Below, piece after piece: positions 57,530 to 60,234 of a stretch of 64,000 nt of DNA. Origin of the DNA: an uncultured Roseibium sp. (GTDB taxonomy: Bacteria; Pseudomonadota; Alphaproteobacteria; Rhizobiales; Stappiaceae); assembly GCF_947499295.1 (NCBI RefSeq), contig NZ_CANMNP010000005.1, positions 62,001 through 126,000 of the forward strand. The letters run 5' to 3'. Numbering within the stretch: position 1 is the stretch's first letter; each line of letters starts with the position of its first letter. Below the pieces are notes generated by a model that saw only the letters and a list, made by a program, of their open reading frames with translations, was not told the origin of the DNA and did no database searches. The translations under genes were made by a program, and so were the position numbers.

Positions 57530-57832
57530 ATGAAGCATAAGGCTATGACCGCTGCAATCGTCGCAGGTGCCGTCGCAACAGCTGTTGCAGGTCTGTCCAC
57601 CACGACCACCCCGGCTCAAGCGCAAGCCAAAGAAAAGTGCTATGGCGTTTCCCTGAAAGGCAAGAATGACTGCAAAGCCGGTGCCGGCACGACCTGCGCA
57701 GGCACTTCCACAGTCGACTATCAGGGCAATGCCTGGACATTGGTTCCAAAAGGCACATGCGTCAGCATGGAACTGCCGGGCGACCGCAAGGGTTCCCTGA
57801 CTGAGCTTAACCGCGACCTTCCTGAAGCCTGA
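57530..57832 (+). CDS. bufA: Bufferin-type RiPP precursor (BufA1 / DUF2282)
   Basis: 100-residue secreted peptide of the DUF2282 family. A Sec signal (AAIVAGAVATAVAGLSTTTT, cleavage near AQA at residues 30-33) replaces the usual RiPP leader. The mature part has EKCYGVSLKGKNDCKAGAG, TTCAGTSTVDYQGNAWTLVP and KGTC, placing four cysteines at 37, 48, 56 and 77. In characterised bufferins the MNIO enzyme BufB and BufC convert cysteines to thiooxazoles and the product chelates metal (copper) in the periplasm. AGAGGAG precedes the ATG; a longer frame from 57446 is unsupported. A hairpin follows, then bufB. Confidence 0.9.
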   Translation: MKHKAMTAAIVAGAVATAVAGLSTTTTPAQAQAKEKCYGVSLKGKNDCKAGAGTTCAGTSTVDYQGNAWTLVPKGTCVSMELPGDRKGSLTELNRDLPEA

Positions 57833-57869
57833 TTTTCTGGCCGACAGGGCCGTTTCACGGCTGAGATTT

Positions 57870-57899
57870 CAGGCAGGCGGGCAACCGTCTGTCTGCCTG
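57870..57899 (+). promoter_or_regulatory. Hairpin between bufA and bufB
   Basis: CAGGCAGGCGG can pair with CCGTCTGTCTGCCTG over a GCAA loop, with a small bulge; no T run follows. It sits 37 bases after the bufA stop and 28 before bufB. Probably lowers read-through or protects bufA mRNA, so that precursor is made in excess over modifying enzymes. Confidence 0.6.
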
Positions 57900-57927
57900 A
57901 CAACCAAGTCTCCCTATGGAGCCCATC

Positions 57928-58824
57928 ATGTTTCCAGACAGCCCGAGCCAGACCCCGACGCGGATTGATGCTTCAGTCCCGGCAAGAGCCGGAGCTGGCC
58001 TGAAGGCTGAACATATTGCCGAGATACTCGAGACATCTGCCGACATCGGGTTCTTCGAAGTTCATGCGGAAAACTATATGGGCGACGGCGGCATGCCGCA
58101 TCGCCAGCTGGAGGCAATTCGGGAGAAATATCCACTGTCTCTCCATGGTGTCGGGCTTTCGATCGGCGGCGAGGGGCCGCTCGACCGCGATCACCTTCAA
58201 CGTCTTGCCGTCTTGAACAAACGCTACGAGCCAGGTCTTTTTTCCGAACACCTGGCCTGGTCGTCCCATGAGACCACTTATCTGAACGATCTGTTGCCTG
58301 TTCCCTATGACCAGGAAACGCTCGATCGGGTCTGCGACCATATTGACGAGGTTCAGGAAAGCGTCGGGCGCCGTATGCTCTTGGAAAATCCGTCCACCTA
58401 CGTCGCTTTCGCGCAAAGCACCATGAGCGAACTGGATTTCCTCAAAGAAATCACGCGCCGGACTGGATGCGGTCTGTTGCTTGACGTGAACAATGTCCAT
58501 GTGTCCTGCACCAATCATGAGAGATCGGCGCTGGATTATCTTGATGCTTTTCCGATTGGCGCGGTTGGCGAAATCCATCTCGGCGGCCATGCGCCTGACC
58601 AGGATGATGCAGGGCGTCCGCTGTTGATCGATGCTCATGACCGGGGAGTCGATCAGGCGGTCTGGGCGCTGTATGAGCACCTAATCGCCAGCACCGGAGC
58701 AATTCCGACCCTGATCGAATGGGACAATGATGTGCCAGCCTGGCCTGTCTTGATGTCAGAGGCTCAGGCAGCAGATCGGATCCTTGCCGACAACAGTCGA
58801 CCCAGCATTCGGCGCGTTGGCTGA
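57928..58824 (+). CDS. bufB: MNIO enzyme (DUF692), bufferin-modifying BufB
   Basis: 298-residue TIM-barrel enzyme of the multinuclear non-haem iron oxidative (MNIO, DUF692) family, related to MbnB. Conserved metal-site segments are all visible: FFEVHAENYM, SLHGVGLSIGG, SEHLAW, LLENPSTYVAF, GLLLDVNNVHVS, GEIHLGGHAPDQ and LIEWDNDVPAWPVL. It should oxidise BufA cysteines with its partner BufC and O2. ATG 57928 has GGAG six bases upstream; ATG 57916 (MEPI) is also possible. The bufC ATG begins two bases after its stop. Confidence 0.93.
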   Translation: MFPDSPSQTPTRIDASVPARAGAGLKAEHIAEILETSADIGFFEVHAENYMGDGGMPHRQLEAIREKYPLSLHGVGLSIGGEGPLDRDHLQRLAVLNKRYEPGLFSEHLAWSSHETTYLNDLLPVPYDQETLDRVCDHIDEVQESVGRRMLLENPSTYVAFAQSTMSELDFLKEITRRTGCGLLLDVNNVHVSCTNHERSALDYLDAFPIGAVGEIHLGGHAPDQDDAGRPLLIDAHDRGVDQAVWALYEHLIASTGAIPTLIEWDNDVPAWPVLMSEAQAADRILADNSRPSIRRVG

Positions 58825-58825
58825 T

Positions 58826-59608
58826 ATGTGCGCAATGGCGACCAGTGACAAAGTCGATGAAACGACTTTTTGCGAAGCTCTTTTCGATCCCGAGAGCAGC
58901 ACGCCGGTGGGTCTTGTCGGACCTGATGGCGAAACTGCGCCCAAGCGCTTCAGCGTCTATCGTAACAATGTGGTCGTGAGTTTGTGCGACGCGCTTGGAG
59001 ACACCTTTCCGGCCGTCAAAAATCTGCTCGGCGATGAATATTTTGGCGCGCTTGCACGCGCTTTTGTAACAAGGCACCCTCCGAAATCGCCGGTGTTGCT
59101 GCACTATGGGGCCGATTTCGCCGGTTTCGTGGAAAGCTTTCCACCTCTGGAAGCTTACCCCTATCTTGCCGACGTTGCCCGCCTCGAGTGGGCCTGGTTG
59201 CAGGCTTATCATGCAACCGACCAGGTTCCGCTTGACCCGTCCAGACTGAGCTCTGTAGATGCTCAATCGGTCGGCGCGGTCCGCTTCAGAAGGCATCCGG
59301 CAGCGCAAGTCGTTACTTCACGTTGGCCTGTCTGGGACCTCGTCCGTGCAAATCGCTTTGATCCGAGTGCCGATATTCAGATCGATCTGCAACTGGCTCA
59401 GTCCGTGCTGCTTACCCGTCCGGAATTGAGCGTCGACATGTTGCTGCTCCGGCCCGGAGCCGACATTTTCGTTTGTGCGCTTTTCGACGGCGCCATGTTG
59501 GCCGAAAGCGCAGAGGCTGCGCAAAAAGCCTTCGAAAATTTTTCACTGTCTGATTGTCTTTCGGACTGTCTTTCAACTGGAGCATTTGCGGATCTCGACG
59601 TAGCCTGA
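58826..59608 (+). CDS. bufC: DUF2063 partner protein of the MNIO enzyme (BufC)
   Basis: 260-residue protein of the DUF2063 family, which recognises the precursor for the MNIO enzyme. The family N-terminal domain is plain: FCEALFDPESSTPVGLVGPD, KRFSVYRNNVVVSLCDAL and FPAVKNLLGDEYFGALARAF; YPYLADVARLEWAWLQAYHA follows, then a less conserved C-terminal half (VWDLVRANRFDPSADIQIDL, LLLRPGADIFVCALFDGAML). Upstream frame to 58784 (TTG) is possible; ATG 58826 leaves about 12 residues before the conserved part. Translation is coupled to bufB. Confidence 0.9.
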   Translation: MCAMATSDKVDETTFCEALFDPESSTPVGLVGPDGETAPKRFSVYRNNVVVSLCDALGDTFPAVKNLLGDEYFGALARAFVTRHPPKSPVLLHYGADFAGFVESFPPLEAYPYLADVARLEWAWLQAYHATDQVPLDPSRLSSVDAQSVGAVRFRRHPAAQVVTSRWPVWDLVRANRFDPSADIQIDLQLAQSVLLTRPELSVDMLLLRPGADIFVCALFDGAMLAESAEAAQKAFENFSLSDCLSDCLSTGAFADLDVA

Positions 59609-59646
59609 GGAACAGGGGCGAGGTCCGTCACAGGAAGGGGGAATTC

Positions 59647-60234
59647 ATGGGTGCGTTGATTGGTTTCTTCGTACGATTGTACACAATGGTATTCGGCGCA
59701 ATTGAGCGCCTGACGAACGGCTGGTTTCTCGGACTTGCCGCCAGATTCATCTTTGCGGCCGTTCTGCTCCAGTTTTTCTGGAATTCAGCGCTGACCAAAA
59801 TCGGTGGAAGTGTTGCCAACATTTTCACACCGACTGCAGGTGCCTATGCGCAGATGCTGCCGCAATTGATGGAACAGGTCAGCTACGACACCAGTCAGAT
59901 TGCCTTCTTTCCCTATGGACTTATCGTGCTTTTGGGCACCTGGGGTGAATTCATCTTGCCCTTGCTTGTTGTTGTCGGGTTGTTCACACGCTTTGCAAGC
60001 CTTGGCATGATCGTCTTCATCATTGTCATGACCTACGTGGATATCACCGGCCACGGTGCGGATGCCAAGACAATCGGTGCGCTCTTTGATGGTGAACCCT
60101 ATGCGATCATCTCTGATGACCGGCTGTTGTGGATCTTCCTGCTGCTCGTTCCGACCCTCAAGGGCCCCGGCGTGATTTCTCTCGACTGGCTGGCGGGTTC
60201 CTACTACCGCAAGCGGGAAATGTACTACGATTGA
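59647..60234 (+). CDS. bufD: DoxX-family membrane protein of the bufferin operon
   Basis: 195-residue inner-membrane protein, DoxX family, with four or more helices (LAARFIFAAVLLQFFWNSAL, YGLIVLLGTWGEFILPLLVV, LGMIVFIIVMTYVDITGHG, LLWIFLLLVPTLKGPGVIS). DoxX proteins commonly accompany bufferin genes, where they have been named BufD; the role is unclear, perhaps redox or export help. A long AGGAAGGGGG precedes ATG 59647; an ORF extending upstream to 59554 overlaps bufC and is not used. Last gene of the operon. Confidence 0.88.
   Translation: MGALIGFFVRLYTMVFGAIERLTNGWFLGLAARFIFAAVLLQFFWNSALTKIGGSVANIFTPTAGAYAQMLPQLMEQVSYDTSQIAFFPYGLIVLLGTWGEFILPLLVVVGLFTRFASLGMIVFIIVMTYVDITGHGADAKTIGALFDGEPYAIISDDRLLWIFLLLVPTLKGPGVISLDWLAGSYYRKREMYYD

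Follow-up and report, generated by a model that had tools for sequence, protein, structure and literature searches.

Copper-binding peptides known as bufferins make up a large family that was named recently. The closest described system to the locus analysed here, the Buf1 operon of Caulobacter vibrioides (CC3254-CC3257), encodes a DUF2282 precursor, an MNIO (DUF692) enzyme, a DUF2063 protein and a DoxX protein, in the same order as the genes presented below (PMC3511200). As described in PMC12452194, the central cysteines of Buf1 are modified and the outer two are joined in a disulphide, and the peptide chelates Cu(I) and Cu(II) and enhances growth in copper excess. Characterised clusters combining an MNIO with a DUF2063 partner are reported to produce 5-thiooxazoles, with 4 H lost per cysteine and an absorbance near 305 nm (PMC13097082), and the thiooxazole peptides characterised so far are described as binding copper (PMC12452194, PMC13097082). 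Both Caulobacter buf operons are reported to need sigma-F, with the promoter GTAACC-N16-CGAA (PMC3511200). Here we analysed a bufferin operon, bufA-bufB-bufC-bufD, found in a 64,000-nucleotide stretch of DNA (the window, whose numbering is used throughout) from an uncultured Roseibium sp. (assembly GCF_947499295.1, contig NZ_CANMNP010000005.1, positions 62,001 to 126,000). We consider it probable that this is a bufferin-1 cluster whose predicted product chelates excess periplasmic copper, with control likely exerted through a conserved element at 57412-57431 and not through sigma-F/NrsF. The operon comprises the following features, with lengths in amino acids (aa):

57518-57523 (+): ribosome-binding-site-like GAGGAG, 5' of bufA
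57530-57832 (+): bufA, 100-aa precursor, DUF2282 (Pfam DUF2282, 87.1 bits; cut-off 22.4)
57916-58824 (+): bufB, 302-aa MNIO maturase (Pfam MbnB_TglH_ChrH, 352.8 bits; cut-off 25)
58826-59608 (+): bufC, 260-aa DUF2063 partner protein (Pfam DUF2063, 89.8 bits; cut-off 27.2)
59647-60234 (+): bufD, 195-aa long-form DoxX-family membrane protein (Pfam DoxX, 27.7 bits; cut-off 23.6)

The initial annotation had described four genes in one run, encoding a four-cysteine precursor, an MNIO, a DUF2063 partner and a DoxX protein, and this description was confirmed at the coordinates given above: all four genes lie on the forward strand, separated by 83, 1 and 38 bases, and all four products score above the Pfam gathering thresholds, the profile searches that it had suggested for DUF2282, DUF692 and DUF2063 returning 87.1, 352.8 (MbnB_TglH_ChrH) and 89.8 bits. 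Start and stop codons were checked for each gene and the four reading frames are intact. The stop codon of bufB (58822-58824) and the ATG of bufC (58826) are just 1 base apart, which makes the proposed coupling of these two genes plausible. BufB also matched the NCBIfam model NF050167 (MNIO_BufB) with 387.3 bits, above the cut-off of 310. The own genome contains one DUF2282 match and one MNIO match, both corresponding to this operon; each of the 39 genomes examined from the same genus (the own one among them) has exactly one DUF2282 match, and 67 of the 81 genomes of a family sample have one. Among 80 fetched relatives, 74 carried bufA, bufB and bufC in the same order on one strand, several of the other six lying at contig ends, and this arrangement is therefore beyond chance. 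Two other identities were considered and rejected: bufferin-2 (BufA2), since NF050166 gave 23.5 bits against a cut-off of 60 and the precursor has four cysteines instead of six, and the oxazolin/fontiphorin type (EGKCG captophorins), which shares the MNIO, the DUF2063 partner and the thiooxazole chemistry (PMC13097082) and is reported to have precursors with EGKCG repeats, none of which occurs in the 100-aa Roseibium BufA. The operon is thus a real, complete and intact bufferin-1 cluster, a member of an already known type.

Within the genome collection, which may omit the nearest records, Labrenzia sp. THAF82 ranked first among the relatives (BufB 94%), followed by Labrenzia and Roseibium species. 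This strain and other Roseibium/Labrenzia share the same genes, gene neighbourhood and upstream element, and THAF82 differs by sequence divergence only, with identities of 96% (BufA), 94% (BufB), 88% (BufC) and 98% (BufD). Regarding the suggestion that the product is likely uncharacterised, no study of a Roseibium bufferin was found in the open-access literature searched by title and abstract opening, where the MNIO papers retrieved named neither Roseibium nor Labrenzia; the family itself is already named in public annotation, several close homologues (among the best 120 of 7994) carrying the name 'BufA1 family periplasmic bufferin-type metallophore'.

The operon differs from its Caulobacter counterpart in the signals expected to control it. 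For this comparison, 32 of the 80 loci (L002-L031, L042 and L055) were placed in the Roseibium family on the basis of record titles, identity and a common gene neighbourhood instead of a tree, and 43 others had a bufA match; L033, L051, L057, L061 and L076, without one, were excluded. The pattern GTAAC-N17-CGAA was found within 250 base pairs (bp) upstream of bufA in none of the 32 family loci, in contrast to 16 of the 43 others (mononucleotide shuffles averaged 0.01 and 0.04, respectively, and reversed sequences gave 0 and 0). The sole GTAACN17CGAA of the window lies at 23800, and there are 47 two-mismatch matches, that at 57381 included, against 44 in shuffles. NrsF was unmatched in the own genome, as in 80 of the 81 family genomes, own included. 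With neither an NrsF match in the genome nor a sigma-F promoter pattern at the locus, sigma-F/NrsF control of this operon was rejected, and its control likely differs from that of Caulobacter. NrsF was matched in a single genome of the family, G035 (locus L106), which has frames for DUF2282, MNIO and DUF2063-type proteins together with a DoxX. It differs from Roseibium by its short DoxX, by the extracytoplasmic function (ECF) sigma gene and NrsF beside the buf genes, and by GTAACG-N16-CGAA 76 bp before bufA, so that both control arrangements exist within one family. G035 is the only DUF2282 bearer among the 14 sampled genomes of its genus (g4) and its cluster is of the sigma-F/NrsF type, a distribution which suggests that this buf cluster was gained by transfer.

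What is new here is the combination of this lack of sigma-F signals at the operon with a single-target element common to the family, which differs from the sigma-F promoter of Caulobacter. The upstream features are:

57412-57431 (+): conserved element GTCACAGCCGTTTGATTTCC, candidate promoter/operator, 118 bp before the bufA ATG (identity and single-copy adjacency)
57432-57438 (+): weaker extension of the element, TATTTAT here and CATTGAT in some relatives (anchored alignment of 32 sequences)
57362-57375 (+): second, weaker conserved block TGTAAGAATCTTGC (alignment of upstream regions)

The 593-bp interval between bufA and the divergent gene gltB had a mean identity of 63.7%, and the element was its best conserved part, with 90.5% over 20 bp in 32 relatives (87.7% for 57412-57438), tied with a palindrome at 57218. 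For comparison, the four-fold sites of bufB were 27-45% identical in 13 relatives. With up to four mismatches allowed, the element was recovered from all family loci but L023 (31 of 32). When genomes were searched with the pattern GTCACR-NN-CGTTTGATTTCC, i.e. GTCACRNNCGTTTGATTTCC, allowing at most one mismatch, 42 of the 81 family genomes (37 of the 39 same-genus ones) contained one copy each, and the reversed-pattern control was found in 1 genome. All 42 copies were on the same strand as the DUF2282 match and 195-344 bp upstream of it (the minus-strand distances include the match length). A second target in the own genome was rejected: besides the own site there was one 3-mismatch match (reversed control 0), which is not evidence, because 0.4 such matches were estimated by chance. 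Of the 32 family loci, 28 have the core TTGATTTCC ahead of bufA, as do 3 of the 43 others (L032, L037 and L072), and it never co-occurred with the sigma-F pattern in those loci; in G128, a genome of another family, it lies 113 bp before bufA. Across the order, 11 genomes out of 297 contained the core TTGATTTCCNATTKA, compared with 2 for the reversed control; it lay beside DUF2282 in the family genomes G000, G001, G008, G019 and G020 and in G128, and on a different contig from DUF2282 in G127 and G190; G157 was not among the DUF2282 matches, and G221 and G240 were left out of this adjacency check. From these sequence comparisons, the 57412-57431 element likely controls the bufA operon through a regulator or sigma factor.

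A number of observations weigh against this reading as a whole. With at most one mismatch allowed, the element pattern was not found in 25 of the 67 family genomes with DUF2282, two of them of the same genus. No clear -10 stood out among the hexamers at offsets 21-60 from the element start in 32 sequences, for which reason 'promoter' is a guess; a classical -35/-10 pair was likewise rejected, a general promoter scan of 56900-60400 having placed its single site at 59983 and nothing close to the element. Equal conservation (0.905) is seen in the palindrome at 57218 that is linked to gltB, so conservation alone ties no block to bufA, although single-copy adjacency does tie the element to it. In an order sample of 140 genomes, 78 had DUF2282, of which 20 had NrsF above the cut-off and 58 did not, with no association between DUF2282 and NrsF (Fisher p 0.35); the case for a missing NrsF as distinctive is thereby weakened, and the lack of it says little by itself because it is common among the DUF2282 genomes of the order. 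As for the proteins, BufC and BufD scored under the NCBIfam cut-offs for HvfC (57.2 bits, cut-off 142) and HvfX (24.5 bits, cut-off 80), and the predicted structure of BufA was poor (predicted local distance difference test, pLDDT, 56), gave no support for a disulphide and was not used.

The precursor itself contains exactly four cysteines, at positions 37, 48, 56 and 77, which were invariant in all 37 aligned BufA sequences (the query and a selection of the 120 homologues listed). Its N-terminus, read by eye, is signal-like, with a basic start, a hydrophobic stretch and AQA twice ahead of the first cysteine. Two segments were delimited within bufA:

57530-57622 (+): likely Sec signal peptide, residues 1-31, with cleavage predicted after A31 or A33 (sequence features only)
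57671-57697 (+): Cys48 codon to Cys56 codon, expected thiooxazole sites (conserved; by analogy with Buf1 as described in PMC12452194)

A tail after the last cysteine longer than in relatives had also been put forward as a novelty. This did not hold, since the 23 residues found here are the rule in the query's group and, of all tail lengths among the 120 homologues listed (range 22-30), the most frequent, occurring in 92. In the loci with bufA the tail had 16-36 residues, L043, L045 and L050 apart, with tails of 16-20 in Bradyrhizobium, Rhizobium and Shinella relatives and of up to 36 in others; the shorter tails expected of relatives would thus fit groups other than the query's. At the end of the tail, Arg95, Asp96 and Pro98 were invariant across the 37 aligned sequences. 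L043, L045 and L050 encode a six-cysteine BufA, with two additional cysteines near the C-terminus, and might bind metal differently.

The maturase retains the residues that the proposed chemistry would need. In HvfB, a related MNIO, a mixed-valent diiron centre and the essential residues N175, D242 and H244 have been reported, and the structure 3BWW is stated to be 72.4% identical to HvfB (PMC13419390). By our reading of the 3BWW alignment, in which the numbering is one lower than in HvfB for D242 and H244, these residues correspond to N193, D239 and H241 of BufB, which were invariant in 20 of 20 aligned BufB sequences (19 drawn from the 80 loci, with the query as the twentieth). For BufC, no solved structural relative was found by sequence search. 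By analogy with the characterised relatives, BufA would be synthesised with a Sec signal and presented by BufC to BufB, which would draw on O2 and an Fe(II)/Fe(III) centre to convert cysteines 48 and 56 to 5-thiooxazoles, each losing about 4 H, prior to the export of BufA. A disulphide would link the outer cysteines 37 and 77, the mature peptide, 67-69 residues long, would bind Cu(I)/Cu(II) in the periplasm, and BufD would act as a membrane helper.

This DoxX protein is 195 aa long in Roseibium versus 150 in Caulobacter, as given in PMC3511200. Among the 43 loci in which BufD was matched, 38 have the long form (at least 189 aa, with script-picked starts), and in 31 relatives the median identity of BufD (86%) exceeded those of BufB (76%) and BufC (58%). 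Its model is all-helical (mean pLDDT 78.6), with one uncertain loop at 144-156, and no solved structure was matched by sequence or profile, nor by fold at E 0.001. The sigma-F pattern was found in 0 of the 37 long-DoxX loci with bufA, and also in 0 of the 4 short-DoxX ones, so any link between the long DoxX and the lack of sigma-F is drawn from G035 and Caulobacter, not from these counts.

The divergent gene upstream of the operon, gltB, encodes the glutamate synthase large subunit; downstream, a gene for a pyridoxal phosphate (PLP)-dependent aldolase-type protein (60279) is followed by a convergent hsp20 (61454-61924, - strand), which is near the buf operon in many relatives, outside the family too. 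The order gltB/buf/aldolase/hsp20 was kept in 30 of the 32 family loci, the exceptions being L009, without aldolase and hsp20 matches in the available stretch, and L019, a short contig. In L047 and L072 the aldolase gene lies between gltB and bufA, and it is therefore regarded as a neighbour with no evident part in the pathway. Farther downstream, 62177-62611 encodes a small basic, secreted-looking protein with no Pfam match at E 0.001.

On the gltB side, the palindrome GGACAGN5CTGTCC (57218-57234) is a candidate gltB operator. Allowing one mismatch and spacers of 4-6, it was found in 32 of 32 family loci, in 7 of 7 others with gltB directly divergent, and in 0 of the 36 remaining ones within 700 bp of bufA; since it tracks gltB across families, it was rejected as a bufA operator. 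The own genome has one perfect copy and 16 one-mismatch copies; as the reversed control gave more (37), there was no sign of a wider palindrome regulon. The 56937-57110 stretch (- strand) is possibly a gltB leader RNA: it is conserved and hairpin-rich in 19 aligned relatives, and 4 of the 23 pairs of its predicted structure showed a double change, one pair going from A-U to G-C in 7 of the 19, with a covariation term of only -0.68 and no Rfam match at E 0.1.

Copper chelation by thiooxazoles appears a sound expectation for this operon by analogy with the characterised relatives. Nevertheless, the same biosynthesis might serve a physiological metal or stress other than copper, such as gold or sulphur/oxidative stress, copper binding being incidental. 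Related clusters were, according to PMC12452194 and PMC3511200, first named gold-induced (gig), the same sources describe a response of the Caulobacter buf operons to chromium and cadmium, and no copper gene is among the nearest identified neighbours (gltB, the PLP aldolase, hsp20 and an alpha/beta hydrolase). We consider this quite unlikely, given the copper binding of the characterised thiooxazole peptides and the help that Caulobacter Buf1 gives to growth in copper excess (PMC12452194, PMC13097082).

A role of the 57412-57431 element as a signal in transcribed 5' untranslated RNA, instead of a promoter/operator, would suit its position 118 bp before the start codon, near enough for transcription, and the lack of a clear -10 by it. 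Against this, nothing in 52000-64000 matched Rfam at E 0.1 and the region from the element to bufA (57440-57515) is poorly conserved, at just 48% identity, which leaves the RNA signal an unlikely alternative to the promoter/operator that we favour. That the operon might be decayed or not expressed is hard to credit, with its reading frames uninterrupted and its DUF2282 gene matched once in every same-genus genome.

The bufferin control circuit that we found described is that of Caulobacter, based on sigma-F. Tentatively, and with somewhat more doubt than confidence, Roseibium and its near relatives may represent a second regulatory class of bufferin-1 operons, lacking sigma-F and having a one-target element (TTGATTTCC-N-ATTKA, about 90-130 bp before bufA), whatever factor reads it, together with an enlarged, well-conserved and working DoxX. 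The conservation of BufD above that of BufB and BufC singles out the DoxX protein as worth study, and the presence of the operon in 39 of 39 same-genus genomes, 37 of them with the single-target element, provides an easy way into a second bufferin control circuit.

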